From: Flavobacterium gelatinilyticum
GTDB taxonomy: Bacteria > Bacteroidota > Bacteroidia > Flavobacteriales > Flavobacteriaceae
Direction: 5' to 3'
Length of the DNA stretch: 64,000 nucleotides
Assembly (NCBI RefSeq): GCF_027111295.1
Contig: NZ_CP114287.1
Location: forward strand, 2,542,001 to 2,606,000
Shown here piece by piece: positions 17,481-57,612 of the stretch. Each line of letters starts with the position of its first letter. Within the stretch, counting starts at the first letter, position 1. The notes beneath the pieces were generated by a model, which worked only from the letters and a program-made list of their open reading frames with translations, was not told the DNA's origin and ran no database searches. The position numbers were made by a program, and so were the translations under genes.

Positions 17481-17488
17481 TTTTGAAG

Positions 17489-17561
<73 letters not shown>

Positions 17562-17667
17562 ATTAACAGGGTGCAAATATAAATAATTAATTCTTTTTAA
17601 AAAACAAAAATCAAAAATTATTTACTTTTGACAAAAAAACCAAAACGATGAAGTTTTGTTTTCTTAG

Positions 17668-17740
<73 letters not shown>

Positions 17741-51586: not shown

Positions 51587-51907
51587 ATGAAAAATATAGT
51601 ATTAGCAGCATTTCTTTTTATTGGAATCGCTGTACAGGCACAAAGCAAAAAGAAATTTGACAAACCAACAGTAGTTGAAGCTTCCTGCGGAGAATGTCAA
51701 TTTGGAATGAAAGGCAAAAGCTGTGATTTAGCTGTCCGTATTGACGGAAAAACCTATTTTGTTGACGGAACATCCATTCACGATCATGGAGATGCACATT
51801 CAGATAAAGGTTTTTGCAACGCCGTTAGAAAAGCTTCTGTTACAGGAGAAATTGTAGGCAATAGATTCAAAGCAACTTCATTTACTTTAATTGACGATAA
51901 AAAATAA
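51587..51907 (+). CDS. Small exported cysteine- and histidine-containing protein (DUF6370-like)
   Basis: The 106-residue protein has a signal peptide (MKNIVLAAFLFIGIAVQAQ) and a compact domain with EASCGECQFGMKGKSCDLAVRIDGKTYFVDGTSIHDHGDAHSDKGFCNAVRKASVTGEIVGN. Four cysteines (CGEC, SC, FC) and the HDHGDAH cluster suggest a metal- or disulfide-bearing periplasmic protein. I place it with DUF6370 on memory of this pattern, with modest confidence. It lies 2 bp after purT and overlaps by 1 bp (TAATG) the Crp/Fnr gene, so the three are co-transcribed. Confidence 0.75.
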   Translation: MKNIVLAAFLFIGIAVQAQSKKKFDKPTVVEASCGECQFGMKGKSCDLAVRIDGKTYFVDGTSIHDHGDAHSDKGFCNAVRKASVTGEIVGNRFKATSFTLIDDKK

Positions 51908-52482
51908 TGGCATTAATTCTTGAAAACATTGCCAAACACGTTTCGCTGACCCCGGAAGAACAGGCGCTTTTTTTATCTAAATTAGAAACAAACACATACA
52001 AAGCCAAAACGCTTTTATTAAATGCCGGCGAAGTTTGTAAACATTCGTATTTTGTAAATTCCGGCATTTTAAGAAGTTTTAATATCAATGATAATATTGT
52101 TGAACATGTCCTTTCTTTTGCCTGCGAAGGCTGGTGGATGAGTGATATGTACAGTTTTTTTTCGCAGAAACCGGGACAGCTTTTTATTGAAGTTCTCGAA
52201 GAAGCCGAAGTGGTTTCATTATCCAAAGAAAATCAGGAACAATTGTATCTTGAAATCCCAAAACTGGAACGTTTTTTCAGGATTTTAATTGAAAATTCAT
52301 TAGTAGCGAATCAACAGCGATTAATGGACAACTTAAGTTTACCAGCCGAAGAACGCTTCGAAAAATTCACTAAAAAATACGGAACATTAGTTCACAAAGT
52401 TCCTCAAAAACAAATTGCTTCTTTTATTGGGGTAACACCTGAATTTTTCAGCAAAATGAAAGCCCGGCTTTTGAAGAAATAG
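51907..52482 (+). CDS. Crp/Fnr-family transcriptional regulator
   Basis: The 191-residue protein has an N-terminal cyclic-nucleotide-binding-like beta domain (about 10-120, with LLLNAGEVCKHSYFVNSGILRSFN and VLSFACEGWWMSDMYSFFSQKPGQLFIEVLEEAEVVSL). A short C-terminal helix-turn-helix (KVPQKQIASFIGVTPEFFSKMKARL) follows. No iron-sulfur cysteine cluster is seen (only two cysteines), so it is not a classic oxygen-sensing Fnr. It overlaps the upstream gene by 1 bp. Such regulators in Bacteroidota bind dyads of the TGA-N6-TCA type. Whether it acts on the boxes at 4481 and 5503 cannot be told from sequence. Confidence 0.93.
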   Translation: MALILENIAKHVSLTPEEQALFLSKLETNTYKAKTLLLNAGEVCKHSYFVNSGILRSFNINDNIVEHVLSFACEGWWMSDMYSFFSQKPGQLFIEVLEEAEVVSLSKENQEQLYLEIPKLERFFRILIENSLVANQQRLMDNLSLPAEERFEKFTKKYGTLVHKVPQKQIASFIGVTPEFFSKMKARLLKK

Positions 52483-53009: not shown

Positions 53010-54050
53010 TGTAAAGGTTACTTATTTCGGTAACGGATTTATCATTTCAATTGGTTTTTTTCCATCAATTCCCTGATGTGGTCTTTCATGATTGTAATAA
53101 TACAAATATTGTAATAATTCCTCTTTCAGTTCTTCTTGCGAATCAAAATCAGTATCCCGTAATAAATCCTCTTCGAGAGTTCTCCAAAAACGTTCAACCT
53201 TGCCATTTGTCTGCGGACGGTAAGGTCTTGTGTACCTGTGAACTATTCCTAATTCCATGAGCATTCTTTCAAATGGATGCTGATTTTTTACCTTGCTTGT
53301 TTTGATTCCAAATTCAGCCCCATTATCAGACAATATCTCTTCAAATTTTATTTCATAATGACTGCTTAAGATATTCAAGCACTTTAATGAGGCAAACATT
53401 ACTGTTAAACTCGTGATGTCCGGAACTAATTCTGCCCAGGCAATACGGCTGTAATCATCAATTACACAGACTAAATAGAGTTTTTTGTTTTCTCCGCGAA
53501 TTACGCTTTTGCTTAAATAATGACAATCAATATGACCCAGCTGTCCCATTCTTTCTTTGATTATTTTCTGATGATTCTTTTTGATCTTCGGAGTTAATCT
53601 GTTTATTTTATGCCGCTTTAAAATATTGTAAACTCCAGAATATGAGGGTGTGTATTTTCCCAATTTGGGATTTAAGATACTAACAATTTCATATTTATTG
53701 TTTCCCTTTTCCCGTAATTCAACCACTTTTTGTTCTATGAACGGCAAAGGGCGTCTGGTTTTATATTTTGGGCCACGTTTTTGAGGCAGTAAATCTACTG
53801 ACTTTCCACTTTGTTTATATCGATTATAATACTTTAAAAAACTCTTTCTGCAAGTATCATTGGCCGTATAAAAATCCATTGCCTTCTTGTACAAGGGATG
53901 GGTCTTGTTTTTAACTTGTTCATATTCTTTAATTAGAAAACGGTACTTCTCTAAATAGTTTCTTTCCAATGTTGAATCCTGACTATTGTTTCTCATCCCA
54001 ACAAAATTTATTAAAGTTAAATTTTGTTACCGAATTATCTAACTTTTACA
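53010..54050 (-). mobile_element. IS481-like insertion sequence, 1041 bp
   Basis: The element has terminal inverted repeats beginning TGTAAAGGTTACTTATTTCG (left) and TGTAAAAGTTAGATAATTCG (right, minus strand). They share TTCGGTAAC just inside, with about 21 of 25 positions agreeing. It is flanked by the 5-bp direct repeat ATTCC (53005-53009 and 54051-54055). It encodes one DDE transposase on the minus strand. Intact ends and intact duplication mean a fairly recent insertion. I see no second IS copy in this window. Confidence 0.92.
53022..53996 (-). CDS. IS481-like DDE transposase
   Basis: The 324-residue transposase has an N-terminal helix-turn-helix region (about 35-140; SFLKYYNRYKQSGKSVDLLPQKRGPKYKTRRP then KVVELREKGNNKYEIVSIL). 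The integrase core follows, with the DDE triad: Asp in GHIDCHYL (about 155), Asp in ILSDNGAEFG (about 226) and Glu in TNGKVERFWRTLEEDLL (about 270). The order HTH-rve with the TNGKVERFWRTLEED motif matches IS481-type transposases. It cuts and pastes the element via the inverted repeats. It is complete, without frameshift, so the element is probably still capable of moving. The start is the ATG at 53996. Confidence 0.93.
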   Translation of the reverse strand: MRNNSQDSTLERNYLEKYRFLIKEYEQVKNKTHPLYKKAMDFYTANDTCRKSFLKYYNRYKQSGKSVDLLPQKRGPKYKTRRPLPFIEQKVVELREKGNNKYEIVSILNPKLGKYTPSYSGVYNILKRHKINRLTPKIKKNHQKIIKERMGQLGHIDCHYLSKSVIRGENKKLYLVCVIDDYSRIAWAELVPDITSLTVMFASLKCLNILSSHYEIKFEEILSDNGAEFGIKTSKVKNQHPFERMLMELGIVHRYTRPYRPQTNGKVERFWRTLEEDLLRDTDFDSQEELKEELLQYLYYYNHERPHQGIDGKKPIEMINPLPK

Positions 54051-54197
54051 ATTCCGACGAAGGAGGAATCTCCGTTAGAAACTCCTCATGTAATATAACC
54101 AATCTTTGTAGAGCTACTTGTGGAGATCTCTCCTTCGTCGAGATGACAAGATTGTGGTTACTTTCCGTCTCTAGTTATGAAAACAAAAACTTCTAAA

Positions 54198-54276
54198 TTA
54201 GCCCCGATAGAAGTGGAAATCCTTTTGTGTATCGTTTTTTAACGAGACACAAAAGATTGAAACGGATAGCGGGACT
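54198..54276. repeat. Imperfect palindrome beginning TTAGCCCCGATAG
   Basis: A left arm (TTAGCCCCGATAGAAGTGG onward, 54198-54230) and a right arm ending in GATAGCGGGACT (54247-54276) pair imperfectly, sharing CTTTTGTGT/ACACAAAAG next to the loop. I recall this element as frequent in Flavobacterium genomes, which I cannot check here. Confidence 0.55.
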
Positions 54277-54368
54277 GAACGTCTTTTAAAAACCAATGTT
54301 TCTGCTTCAAAAAATAAATTAGATAATTTGAGAATGTGTCAATTAGATAATTAAACTTTAAAAGAAAA

Positions 54369-54405
54369 CCTTAGAATCTTAGCAACTTAGAGCCTCAGAA
54401 TCTTT
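54369..54405. repeat. CTTAG/CTCAG-type degenerate repeat
   Basis: Runs of CTTAGAATCTTAGCAACTTAG, then AGCCTCAGAATC; same kind as 10401-10437. Confidence 0.5.
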
Positions 54406-54452
54406 TCTTAATCTAGGTTAAGTGCTTTTCCTTTACCATGGTGGTATCTTTG
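54404..54452 (+). promoter_or_regulatory. Operator-like 24-bp site plus -7 box of the pirin gene
   Basis: A 24-bp stretch (54404-54427) with core dyad CTTAATCTAGGTTAAG (CTTAA-N6-TTAAG) is followed after 17 bp by TATCTTTG (54445-54452). The identical 24 bp, with identical 17-bp spacing to a -7 box, recurs at 55411. The dyad is 14 of 16 symmetric. It overlaps the -33 region, so it could be an operator or activator site. Confidence 0.75.
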
Positions 54453-54481
54453 TACTATAAAAATAACAAAAGGACAAAATC

Positions 54482-55198
54482 ATGGAAAATATAGTATTAC
54501 ACAAAGCAGAATCAAGAGGAAATGCAAATCACGGATGGCTAAATGCTTATCATAGCTTTAGTTTTGCAAGCTGGTACAATCCGGACAGAATTCAGTTTGG
54601 GGCACTTCGTGTTTTGAACGATGATACGATTGCTGCCGGAATGGGATTTGGAACCCACCCTCACGATAATATGGAAATTATTACGATTCCGTTAGAAGGT
54701 GACTTGGCTCATAAAGACAGTATGGGAAATACTGAAGTGATCAAAAATGGCGATATTCAGGTAATGAGTGCCGGAACCGGAATTCAGCATAGCGAGTTTA
54801 ATCCAAACAATGACCAGCAGACTAAATTGTTACAGATTTGGTTGTTCCCAAACAAAAGAAATGTTACGCCGCGTTATCAGCAGATTACTTTAGATGTTGC
54901 TGACAGACATAACAAATTATCTCAGGTTTTATCTCCAAATCAAGATGATGAAGGTGTTTGGATTCACCAGGATGCTTGGTTTAATATGGGAAATTTCGAT
55001 TCTGGAGTTACTGCAGAATATAAAATTAAAAAAGAAGGAAACGGAGTTTACGCTTTCGTTTTAAAAGGAAATGTAACCATCAACGGTCAGGAATTAAATT
55101 CTCGTGACGCGGTTGGAATTTCAGGAACTGATACTTTAAACATTAAAGCAAATACAGATGCTGAATTTTTATTAATGGACATTCCGATGAATTATTAA
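54482..55198 (+). CDS. Pirin-family protein (quercetinase-like cupin)
   Basis: The 238-residue protein is a double cupin. The N-terminal metal site is in GFGTHPHDNMEIIT...LAHKDSMGN with the GTGIQHSEFNP motif, so three histidines and a glutamate can bind metal. The C-terminal cupin (GVTAEYKIKKEGNGVYAFVLKGNVTINGQELN) lacks a full metal site, as in YhhW-like pirins. Family members include quercetin dioxygenases and transcription-associated proteins. Its role in Flavobacteriia is not known. The promoter carries the same operator as the YceI gene downstream, so the two probably answer one regulator. Confidence 0.94.
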   Translation: MENIVLHKAESRGNANHGWLNAYHSFSFASWYNPDRIQFGALRVLNDDTIAAGMGFGTHPHDNMEIITIPLEGDLAHKDSMGNTEVIKNGDIQVMSAGTGIQHSEFNPNNDQQTKLLQIWLFPNKRNVTPRYQQITLDVADRHNKLSQVLSPNQDDEGVWIHQDAWFNMGNFDSGVTAEYKIKKEGNGVYAFVLKGNVTINGQELNSRDAVGISGTDTLNIKANTDAEFLLMDIPMNY

Positions 55199-55230
55199 TT
55201 CAAACAAAAACAATTAAATACCTGTACCTT

Positions 55231-55278
55231 GAAACGATAATAAATCTGGAAATCAGATTATTATCGTTTCTTTTTTTT
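55231..55278 (+). terminator. Pirin terminator
   Basis: GAAACGATAATAAATCTG (55231-55248) pairs with CAGATTATTATCGTTTC (55254-55270) with one bulged A, followed by eight T. Confidence 0.9.
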
Positions 55279-55410
55279 AACCTTTAATTGATAAAAAACA
55301 AAATAAGAAAGGCTAACTTTATTAATAAGCGGAGAACTGACAGGTTTTAATAACCTTTTAGGTCTGTTCAAAACGAATTAAAATTGGTTATTAAATTATC
55401 ACATTTTTTA

Positions 55411-55459
55411 TTTCTTAATCTAGGTTAAGTGCTTCAGGACAACTGTCACCGTAACTTTG
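55411..55459 (+). promoter_or_regulatory. Operator-like 24-bp site plus -7 box of the cytoplasmic YceI gene
   Basis: The same 24 bp as 54404-54427 lies at 55411-55434, and TAACTTTG (55452-55459) follows after 17 bp. Flanking sequences differ, so this is a conserved regulatory unit and not a larger duplication. Confidence 0.75.
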
Positions 55460-55503
55460 TCCTATCAAAATGAAACAAATTAATTATTTAAAAAAATAAA
55501 ATT

Positions 55504-56037
55504 ATGGCAACTACAAAATGGTCAATTGACCCAACTCACTCAGAAATTGGTTTTAAAGTAAAACACATGATGTTTACTAATGTTTCAGGTAAATTTGGAA
55601 CATACAGCGCTGAAATTACTACAGACGGAGAAAATTTTGAAAATGCAGACATTCAGTTTTCTGCTGATGTTGCGTCTGTTGATACTGCAAATGCAGACAG
55701 AGACGGACATTTAAGAAGCGGGGATTTCTTTGATGTTGAAAATCACCCTAAATTAACTTTCAAAGCTTCTTCTTTCAAAAAAATCAATGCAGGAAGCTAT
55801 GAAATCACTGGAGATTTAAACATTAAAGGTGTTTCTAAAACCGTAACTTTTCCGGTAGAATACAGCGGAATCCTGACTGATCCTTGGGGAAATACTAAAG
55901 TTGGTTTGAGCATAGAAGGAAAAATTAATCGTAAAGATTGGGGTTTAAACTGGAACTCTGCTCTTGAAACTGGCGGTGTGTTAGTTGGCGAAGAAGTAAA
56001 ATTAAACATCGAATTACAATTCGTAAAACAAGCTTAA
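55504..56037 (+). CDS. YceI-family protein without signal peptide
   Basis: The 177-residue protein starts MATTKWSIDPTHSEIGFKVKHMMFTNVSGKFG, the classic N-terminus of cytoplasmic YceI proteins. SADVASVDTANADRDGHLRSGDFFDVENHPKLTFKAS and VGLSIEGKINRKDWGLNWNSALETGGVLVGEEV follow. There is no signal peptide, unlike the two periplasmic copies at 4.6-6.2 kb. YceI-fold proteins bind isoprenoid or fatty-acid-like ligands. The gene shares its operator-like site with the pirin gene upstream. The two may act together in a stress or redox response, which is inferred from the shared site. Confidence 0.94.
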   Translation: MATTKWSIDPTHSEIGFKVKHMMFTNVSGKFGTYSAEITTDGENFENADIQFSADVASVDTANADRDGHLRSGDFFDVENHPKLTFKASSFKKINAGSYEITGDLNIKGVSKTVTFPVEYSGILTDPWGNTKVGLSIEGKINRKDWGLNWNSALETGGVLVGEEVKLNIELQFVKQA

Positions 56038-56069
56038 TCTATAAAAATTAGGTTTTAATTTGGTTGGTT

Positions 56070-56100
56070 AAAAGCCTTGCGTTTACTCGCAGGGCTTTTA
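56070..56100 (+). terminator. YceI terminator
   Basis: AAAAGCCTTGCG (56070-56081) pairs with CGCAGGGCTTTT (56088-56099) with one mismatch. Confidence 0.85.
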
Positions 56101-56105
56101 TTTTT

Positions 56106-56294
56106 TCCGCCACGAATTCACGAATTATTTTTTTATTTCACGCAGATTTAAATTGATTTGAGCAGATTTACGCAAATTTATTCTTAATCTGCTTAAATCT
56201 GTAAAATCTGCGTGAAACCAAAATACCCCCCAAAGATTAATAAAAAAATAATTCGTGAATTACTTCGTCTATTCGCTGTCGCTCGGGTCGTGGC
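56106..56294. repeat. Nested palindromic repeat
   Basis: Outer arms 56116-56136 and 56240-56260 pair perfectly over 21 bp (ATTCACGAATTATTTTTTTA onward). Inner arms TTTCACGCAGATTT (56136-56149) and AAATCTGCGTGAAA (56204-56217) also pair perfectly. The outermost CCACGA (56110-56115) and TCGTGG (56288-56293) extend it. It fills the gap between the convergent YceI and AraC genes. Confidence 0.75.
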
Positions 56295-57157
56295 TATCTA
56301 ACAGTATTCCTAAATTCTGTGGGTGACATTCCGGTTTGTTTTTTGAAGAATCTCGAGAAGTACGAGTAATCTTCGTAGCCGACTTTCAATGCGACTTCGT
56401 TTATAGCTAATTGTTTATCCATCAACATTCTTTTGATTTCCAGGATAACTCGGTCTGTGATTACTTCTGTTGCTGTTTTTTGAAGAATTTCGTTGCAAAT
56501 TCTGTTTAAATGTTTCAGTGTAATATTTAGTTTTTCTGCGTAGAACGAAGGTAGTTTTTCAGTTCTGAAATATTCTTCTAAAAGCGATTCGAACGTATTG
56601 ATTTTGACGTTGTAGGAATGGGTTTGATGCGAATAGGTTTCATTATATTTTCTCGCTATTTCTATATGAATGCAGTCTAATAAATTCAGTAATTTATCTA
56701 ATTGATATTTATTATTCTGGCTGTTTTCCTGAATCAGCAAATCAAAATAAGGAAGAATTTTTGGAATTTCATTTTCTTCAAAAACCATTTCCGGCCGGTT
56801 ATGAATCGAATGATAAAAATTATAATCGTTGATCTTTTTTTGTCCGAAATACAAATTGTACAATTCCTGAGAAAAGATAATGACGAAACCTTCGATGTCT
56901 TCGGATAAATTCCAATGGTGCATCTGTCCGGGCTGCAGCACGAAAAGACTTCCTCTTTTGATACCGAATTGGTCAAAATCGACTTCATGCAATCCTGAAC
57001 CTTTGGTAAAAAAGACCATTAAATAGGAATCGTGACGGTGTGGTTCTTCGACAAAACTGTGACTTTTTAAATGTTCTGCAAAAGTATTGACGTAAAAATC
57101 ACGATGAATATCGTTACAGCTAAAATTCTGAACACTATAAATTGGATATTTTTTCAT
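56294..57157 (-). CDS. AraC-family transcriptional regulator
   Basis: The 287-residue protein has an N-terminal cupin-like sensing domain (about 1-170; HSFVEEPHRHDSYLMVFFTKGSGLHEVDFDQFGIKRGSLFVLQPGQMHHW). The C-terminal double helix-turn-helix (about 195-287) contains LNITLKHLNRICNEILQKTATEVITDRVILEIKRMLMDKQLAINEVALKVGYEDYSYFSRFFKKQTGMSPTEFR. It is a single-component transcriptional activator of the AraC/XylS type. The ligand is unknown. It is divergent from the DUF983 gene. Its relation to the pirin/YceI promoters nearby is possible by position but unproven. Confidence 0.95.
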   Translation of the reverse strand: MKKYPIYSVQNFSCNDIHRDFYVNTFAEHLKSHSFVEEPHRHDSYLMVFFTKGSGLHEVDFDQFGIKRGSLFVLQPGQMHHWNLSEDIEGFVIIFSQELYNLYFGQKKINDYNFYHSIHNRPEMVFEENEIPKILPYFDLLIQENSQNNKYQLDKLLNLLDCIHIEIARKYNETYSHQTHSYNVKINTFESLLEEYFRTEKLPSFYAEKLNITLKHLNRICNEILQKTATEVITDRVILEIKRMLMDKQLAINEVALKVGYEDYSYFSRFFKKQTGMSPTEFRNTVR

Positions 57158-57219
57158 AAATGTCTTTTTTGTGCTATAATAAGCGAAGATATAAAAAAGA
57201 CTTTTAAGTCATTACAAAT

Positions 57220-57227
57220 TACCTTTG
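57220..57227 (+). promoter_or_regulatory. -7 box for the DUF983 gene (TACCTTTG)
   Basis: TACCTTTG lies 22 nt before the ATG at 57250. Confidence 0.65.
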
Positions 57228-57249
57228 TATAAACAAAAATAACAAAGTC

Positions 57250-57612
57250 ATGTCAAGCGCATTAACTCATATTTTAAAAAACGAATGTCCTGTTTGTCAC
57301 AAAGGAAAAGTTTTTACCGACAAAAATATTTTTTTCAATTTCAGTTTTCCAAAAATGAATGAATATTGCAGTCACTGCCATTATAAATTTCAAAAAGAAC
57401 CTGGTTATTTCTTTGGAGCGATGTATGTAAACTACGGATTAACAGTAGCTCAAGGAATTGCGACATATTGTATTGCACAATATTTTTTCGAAACCAACTT
57501 CGACTTAAGAATCCTTCCAATCATTGCTGTTGTGATTACTTTACTGACTCCTTTTAATCTTAGATTTTCGAGATTAGCGTGGATTTATATGTTCAAGGGT
57601 TATACGAGCTAA
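57250..57612 (+). CDS. DUF983-family membrane protein
   Basis: The 120-residue protein starts with a zinc-ribbon-like half (CPVCHKGKVF...YCSHCHYKFQKEPGYFFGAMYVNYG) and continues with two membrane spans (GLTVAQGIATYCIAQYFF and LRILPIIAVVITLLTPFNL). This is the DUF983 layout. Function is unknown in the literature that I can recall. It has its own promoter; the fabD promoter lies directly after its stop codon. Confidence 0.9.
   Translation: MSSALTHILKNECPVCHKGKVFTDKNIFFNFSFPKMNEYCSHCHYKFQKEPGYFFGAMYVNYGLTVAQGIATYCIAQYFFETNFDLRILPIIAVVITLLTPFNLRFSRLAWIYMFKGYTS

Follow-up and report, generated by a model that had tools for sequence, protein, structure and literature searches.

Identical 24-bp sites before pirin and yceI of Flavobacterium as putative operators of a Crp/Fnr-like protein

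At class II promoters, CRP and FNR of E. coli bind with their site centred near -41.5. The CRP site is TGTGA-N6-TCACA, two 5-bp half-sites set 6 bp apart (5-6-5), the FNR half-site is TTGAT, and FNR proper carries an N-terminal cysteine cluster for an Fe-S centre. In the quinone stress response of Firmicutes, ring-cleaving dioxygenase, phospholipase/carboxylesterase and FMN/quinone-reductase-type genes stand under one regulator, MhqR or QsrR; MhqR is a MarR repressor acting on a 9-9 inverted repeat, and pirin and YceI are not among the genes described in the portion of that source used here (PMC6798810). In Bacteroides fragilis, from the same phylum as the DNA studied here, the pirins pir1 and pir2 are induced by oxygen and by iron limitation, and the portion of the source drawn on here mentions no Crp-type operator (PMC11304471). 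In the open-access literature we found no regulator of pirin or YceI in Flavobacterium and nothing relevant on a Crp/Fnr regulon in Bacteroidetes. The present analysis proposes which protein regulates these two genes and through which operator, together with a regulon and a hypothesis on the signal.

The window, that is, the whole stretch of 64,000 nucleotides that was analysed, covers positions 2,542,001-2,606,000 of the single contig of 5,832,845 bases that makes up the Flavobacterium gelatinilyticum genome. A gene for a Crp/Fnr-like transcription factor of 191 aa, recognised by Pfam and by structure comparison and labelled CrpA by us, lies at 51907-52482 (+). A small ORF and an insertion sequence separate it from pirin, the insertion sequence spanning 53010-54050 with 25-nt inverted repeats (53010-53034 and 54026-54050, 84% complementary) and an rve integrase on the minus strand (53022-53996). 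Pirin itself (54482-55198, +; quercetinase-type, 238 aa; Pfam Pirin 3.4e-33, Pirin_C_2 2.1e-29) is followed by the gene for a 177-aa YceI-family protein (55504-56037, +; Pfam YceI 2.3e-52; no signal peptide by eye) and by that for an AraC-family protein (56294-57157). A Flavo-1 RNA (RF01705; 54196-54280, +; Rfam 77.5 bits, cut-off 42) stands between the insertion sequence and the first of the two sites described below; it is the only Rfam match in 53990-57250 and lies upstream of that site, and an RNA element was rejected as an explanation of the sites. Elsewhere in the window, a long exact repeat is explained by tandem tRNA-Gly (tcc) genes at 17488-17561 and 17667-17740 on the minus strand.

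The 24-mer TTTCTTAATCTAGGTTAAGTGCTT occurs on the plus strand at 54404-54427, before pirin, and at 55411-55434, before yceI. The preliminary description had reported this identity, with a TAnnTTTG box 17 bp further on at both copies and flanks that differ, and our coordinates and alignments confirm it. The identity does not extend past the 24 bp on either side, the boxes are TATCTTTG (54445-54452, +) for pirin and TAACTTTG (55452-55459, +) for yceI, and the flanks of the two copies agree at 31.5% over 200 bp upstream and at 50% over 60 bp downstream. Inside the 24-mer lies the dyad CTTAATCTAGGTTAAG, which pairs at 7/8 positions and has the form CTTAA-N6-TTAAG (54407-54422 and 55414-55429), with the box 22 nt after it. 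A search of the window with up to 3 mismatches to the dyad gave 4 matches, which are the two sites read on either strand, where shuffled sequence gave 0.85 on average, and in the whole genome (5.83 Mb) the exact 16-bp dyad occurs at only 2 places, both of them the 24-mer copies. When the genome was scanned for the dyad with the box at 22 nt and up to 3 mismatches, 9 matches were obtained, 5 with 0-1 mismatch and 4 with 3; the mirrored control of the same scan also gave 9, which puts the 3-mismatch class at noise level. A chance origin of the pair was rejected on the shuffles, the rarity of the dyad in the genome, the existence of the 0-1-mismatch sites and a nearly empty mirrored control over the genus. 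The operator pair is genuine and conserved, and it belongs to a larger regulon.

The five promoters with 0-1 mismatch are those of pirin, of yceI, of a pirin2-OsmC-GNAT operon, of a ring-cleaving-dioxygenase/esterase operon and of an alpha/beta hydrolase. The dioxygenase operon encodes on one strand a protein of the glyoxalase/dioxygenase superfamily, which we read as the ring-cleaving dioxygenase, a hydrolase of the proline iminopeptidase family, a GNAT protein, a phospholipase/carboxylesterase and a 116-aa protein without a Pfam match. At locus L034 (7383-7930, minus strand), four operator-promoter units stand in tandem, one CTTGTCCTACATTAAG with a spacing of 22 and three CTTATTCTAGATTAAG with a spacing of 21, and downstream of them lie a 104-aa gene of unknown family, an isochorismatase-family gene and an amidohydrolase gene. 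Three of these four units are near-identical copies, which looks like promoter amplification, and the isochorismatase-family cluster is probably a member of the CrpA regulon. The pirin operon of relatives may also include genes for OsmC, a 4Fe-4S mono-cluster protein and an FMN reductase. The 'small pirin/YceI regulon' of the preliminary description was thus right in holding both genes but too narrow, given five promoters and the tandem set of four. By its gene content, the regulon resembles a quinone or electrophile detoxification response and shares with the MhqR and QsrR regulons the three gene types named above (PMC6798810); that content suggests a signal of the same kind. The likeness is one of gene families, the esterase here matching MhqD weakly (22.5 of 325 bits).

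For the genus-wide comparison, we used 121 Flavobacterium genomes sampled evenly across the genus; since these genomes are related to one another, the counts do not represent independent events. A site was counted when the dyad had at most 1 mismatch and was accompanied by the box, and the counts per genome are complete. CrpA was called at E <= 1e-65, a cut-off set after the data had been seen, in a gap of the values from 1.0e-67 to 2e-51, and this removes G024, G033 and G084 from 81 matches and leaves 78 genomes. The site is present in 70 of the 78 genomes with CrpA and in 0 of the 43 without it, and the mirrored control over all 121 genomes, at the same limit of 1 mismatch, found one match in total. 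Because of this co-occurrence, the regulator of the 24-mers is very probably CrpA, whose gene lies inside the window. The preliminary description had ascribed both copies to one shared regulator; this is strongly supported, with action near -42, and CrpA is now the proposed candidate. It had also asked for a scan of this and related Flavobacterium genomes, which found the five sites here and sites in 70/121 genomes of the genus, and it had seen a possible objection in a failure of the site to be conserved before the orthologues: where the CrpA gene is present the site is conserved before them, and where CrpA is absent so is the site.

Seven of the eight CrpA genomes without the standard site carry a variant of the dyad in the stretch from CrpA to pirin, namely the site at spacing 21 in G056 and G072, CTTAATATAG(G/A)TTAAC in G022, G027 and G107, CTTGACATAGGTCAAG in G034 and CATAATCTAGGTCAAG in G059; in the eighth, G046, the site was not found on its fragment. 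At five loci of relatives (L041, L045, L046, L054 and L055) the gene immediately upstream of the site and of pirin, in the same orientation, encodes a Crp/Fnr-like protein, whose orthologue in the window is CrpA. The distance from CrpA to the operator, readable on one contig in 47 genomes, is 7-207 bp in 23, 1.3-3.4 kb in 5 and 5.2-6.8 kb in 19; the gene is not adjacent to the operator in 24/47 (1.3-6.8 kb), including this genome, where the distance is 1.9 kb. Both pirin and yceI fell inside the fetched flanks at only 3 of the 80 loci found by name. Beyond the genus, matches were seen in 2 of 197 other genomes of the family, of which one falls inside a reading frame and the other precedes a response-regulator-like gene; both look like chance, and the site is nearly limited to the genus.

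CrpA has the N-terminal beta-roll of the superfamily (Pfam cNMP_binding, PF00027, E 6e-8; 33.0 bits over a cut-off of 27.5), and its match to HTH_Crp_2 is below the cut-off (E 0.0065, 16.8 of 27 bits). The structural model places helices at 147-190 (mean pLDDT 78), and a profile of 15 CrpA orthologues aligns through the helix-turn-helix of 3dn7 and FNR. The nearest solved structure, by sequence (E 1.4e-35) and also by fold, is 3dn7, a cyclic nucleotide binding regulatory protein of Cytophaga hutchinsonii whose entries state no function, and the fold of the model matches 3dn7, FNR and CRP. CrpA and its putative operators share with the E. coli regulators the superfamily, two 5-bp half-sites 6 bp apart and a centre near -41.5 (here -42.5 or -41.5). 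They differ in the half-site, CTTAA instead of TGTGA or TTGAT, in the Bacteroidota -7 box and in the small, genus-restricted regulon, and CrpA scores far below the NCBI cut-offs, with 31.4 of 266 bits against the CRP model and 24.5 of 228 bits against the Fnr model, which leaves it outside both CRP proper and FNR proper. Unlike MhqR, the protein that tracks the sites here is Crp/Fnr-like and not of the MarR type. Close homologues of CrpA bear only family names among the database matches listed. CrpA has only two cysteines (44 and 73), unlike FNR proper with its N-terminal cluster, and thiol-based sensing of electrophiles through a conserved cysteine is disfavoured because none is invariant in the 15 orthologues.

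In the 43 genomes without CrpA, 38 retain pirin and 18 retain YceI (E <= 1e-25), and none has the CTTAA site. Among 30 fetched pirin loci of such genomes, 15 have a different Crp-like gene, which we call CrpB, just before pirin, and all 15 gaps contain a different dyad, CTTG(T/A)..CAATG; three loci (L127, L131 and L135) show weak, 3-mismatch likenesses to the CTTAA dyad upstream. With CrpB called at >= 58% identity, a limit chosen after the data had been seen, its operator is present in 21 of 22 CrpB genomes and in 0 of 99 others, and the reversed control found none; in a looser set of 29 genomes at E <= 1e-60 the counts are 21/29 and 0/92. Since the 15 gaps served to define the operator pattern, the genomes they come from do not test it independently; G073 and five genomes with two regulators lie outside that set. 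These five have both regulators and both operators, the CrpB operator closely behind the CrpB gene and CTTAA sites as well. In G073, CrpB is unlinked (2.26 Mb) and the operator still stands just before pirin (2.42 Mb). In G087, CrpB is present and its operator was not found. The 26 genomes with neither CrpA nor CrpB have neither operator, and 21 of them have pirin. G033 and G118 have the CrpB operator before pirin and again before yceI, which is the arrangement of the window with another site. The two regulators form separate groups in the tree, each with 100/99 support. The mechanism proposed here is of a known kind and the locus is a good natural test of regulator-operator exchange, the passage between CrpA and CrpB amounting to a natural experiment on the joint change of a regulator and its sites. 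In the gap before pirin of one genome (locus L147, G070), four CrpB-type operators CTTGAACT(G/A)GTTCAATG stand in tandem, each with a box.

The position of the dyad bears on how CrpA might act. In F. psychrophilum, TAnnTTTG is placed at -12 to -5 (PMC9723704), and the boxes of pirin and yceI fit this consensus. By that mapped position, with the start taken from F. psychrophilum, the dyad covers -50 to -35 with its centre at -42.5 (spacing 22) or -41.5 (spacing 21). Where loci had been picked for the regulator gene, without regard to the pattern (15 sites in L107-L126 and 6 in L187-L266), the box accompanies all 21 sites with at most 1 mismatch on one strand, at 22 nt in 19 cases and at 21 nt in 2; the random occurrence without a -7 box that the preliminary description had considered is not what we see. 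A -33 TTG, 18-21 nt before the box, is found in 2 of 67 operator promoters and missing from 65, a count for operator promoters alone. Over 61 distinct promoters of spacing 22, most dyad columns carry 1.6-2 bits and three carry 1.0-1.1, dyad and box being part of the search pattern; the unselected TT before the dyad reaches 1.9 and 1.6 bits, and 19 of the 22 spacer columns stay below 0.5 bits. A centre near -41.5 at fixed spacing is the arrangement of a class II promoter. Genome comparison supports the sites, the constancy of their spacing, the regulon and the link between operator and regulator; physical binding, activation in preference to repression and the inducing signal are inferences.

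As we picture it, a CrpA dimer would bind CTTAA-N6-TTAAG about 42.5 bp upstream of the start and, by class II activation, would take the place of the missing -33 element and bring the main RNA polymerase to TAnnTTTG. It would drive pirin and yceI, each as a unit of its own, and, elsewhere, the pirin2-OsmC-GNAT operon, the ring-cleaving-dioxygenase/esterase operon, the alpha/beta hydrolase and probably the isochorismatase-family cluster. We regard this whole explanation, in which the 24-mers are CrpA operators for class II activation of a detoxification-type regulon, as likely. CrpA could instead be a repressor that blocks polymerase from -50 to -35 until an electrophile releases it, in the way quinones release MhqR and QsrR; the targets do resemble the regulons of repressors such as MhqR (PMC6798810), and the site comes close to the expected position of a -33 element. 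We consider this unlikely, as repression needs neither the fixed spacing of 21-22 nt (21/21) nor the missing -33 TTG (65/67). Judged by position and promoter make-up, an activator is the better reading, preferred because so few of the operator promoters (2/67) have the -33 TTG.

Other regulators fare worse. An HxlR gene (Pfam E 5.1e-28) directly precedes the alpha/beta hydrolase site, and its product, or another HxlR- or MarR-type repressor, might bind the dyad. This gene adjoins one of the five sites, but at L037, L039, L040 and L052 the hydrolase has the site and, by eye, no HxlR gene beside it, and a repressor of either type leaves the exchange between CrpA and CrpB unexplained; on these grounds the HxlR protein was rejected, and we hold any such repressor to be very improbable. 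A symmetric 5-6-5 dyad is unusual for AraC proteins. The AraC-family gene of the window, raised as a candidate in the preliminary description, is a conserved neighbour, and in the pooled 121 genomes the site occurs in 55 of 71 AraC genomes against 15 of 50 others, as expected of a neighbour gene. Inside the CrpA genomes the association is weak (p 0.09), the site is missing from all 12 genomes that have AraC (E <= 1e-60) but lack CrpA, and 15 of the 70 site-bearing genomes have no AraC at that cut-off. The gene does not track the sites once CrpA is considered, and we give it a still slighter chance than the HxlR or MarR proteins. A recent local duplication, or a repeat that arose by chance, would fit two copies that lie 1 kb from each other and agree over all 24 bp. 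We give this reading a negligible probability: the flanks are unlike, three more loci carry the operator-box unit, and the pair is conserved in relatives with diverged spacers, which refutes it.

Among 25 CrpA sequences, TPEFFSK is found in 22, TPEFFSR in 2 and TPEFYSK in 1, and in G034 and G059, where R replaces K, both halves or one half of the dyad read CTTGA. CrpB has S(A/P)EFLSK and retains K yet reads CTTG. Two paralogues of this genome that precede carboxymuconolactone-decarboxylase genes have SAEFMSK with CTTGAAGTAGTTCAAG and TPEYLSE with CTTAAACCAGTTTAAG. These few cases hint at a residue-operator code and give no rule.

The genome has 21 Crp-like genes. The strict box gave few dyads near the paralogues and one box mismatch was then allowed, the p values following the relaxed rule; by this rule, a dyad of this geometry reaches p < 0.05 next to 7 of the 20 paralogues besides CrpA (combined p 1.9e-6, first-order Markov resamples), and for the remaining 13 none was found at that level. 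It is about an even bet, in our judgement, that the Crp/Fnr family of Flavobacterium has expanded into insulated local activators, each with its own palindrome at the class II position and many beside their target, and that the pirin-yceI module exchanged regulator and operators together (CTTAA..TTAAG for CrpA, CTTG..CAAT for CrpB, in some genomes each before both genes), leaving a readable recognition-helix code. For annotation, we suggest searching the gap between a Crp-like gene of the genus and its neighbour for a 16-bp dyad followed at 21-22 nt by a TAnnTTTG-like box. Two of the four 3-mismatch matches of the genome scan have CTTAACCAAAGTCAATG in common and adjoin two of the Crp-like paralogues. 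At L062 and L064, two Crp-like paralogues within ~2.6 kb each stand beside this 17-mer with a box spacing of 22, a second pair in this genome with a shared operator. At L077, the gap before an SDR-like gene, adjoining another Crp-like gene, contains the perfect 16-bp palindrome TTTGCCATATGGCAAA, 21 nt before CAACTTTG.
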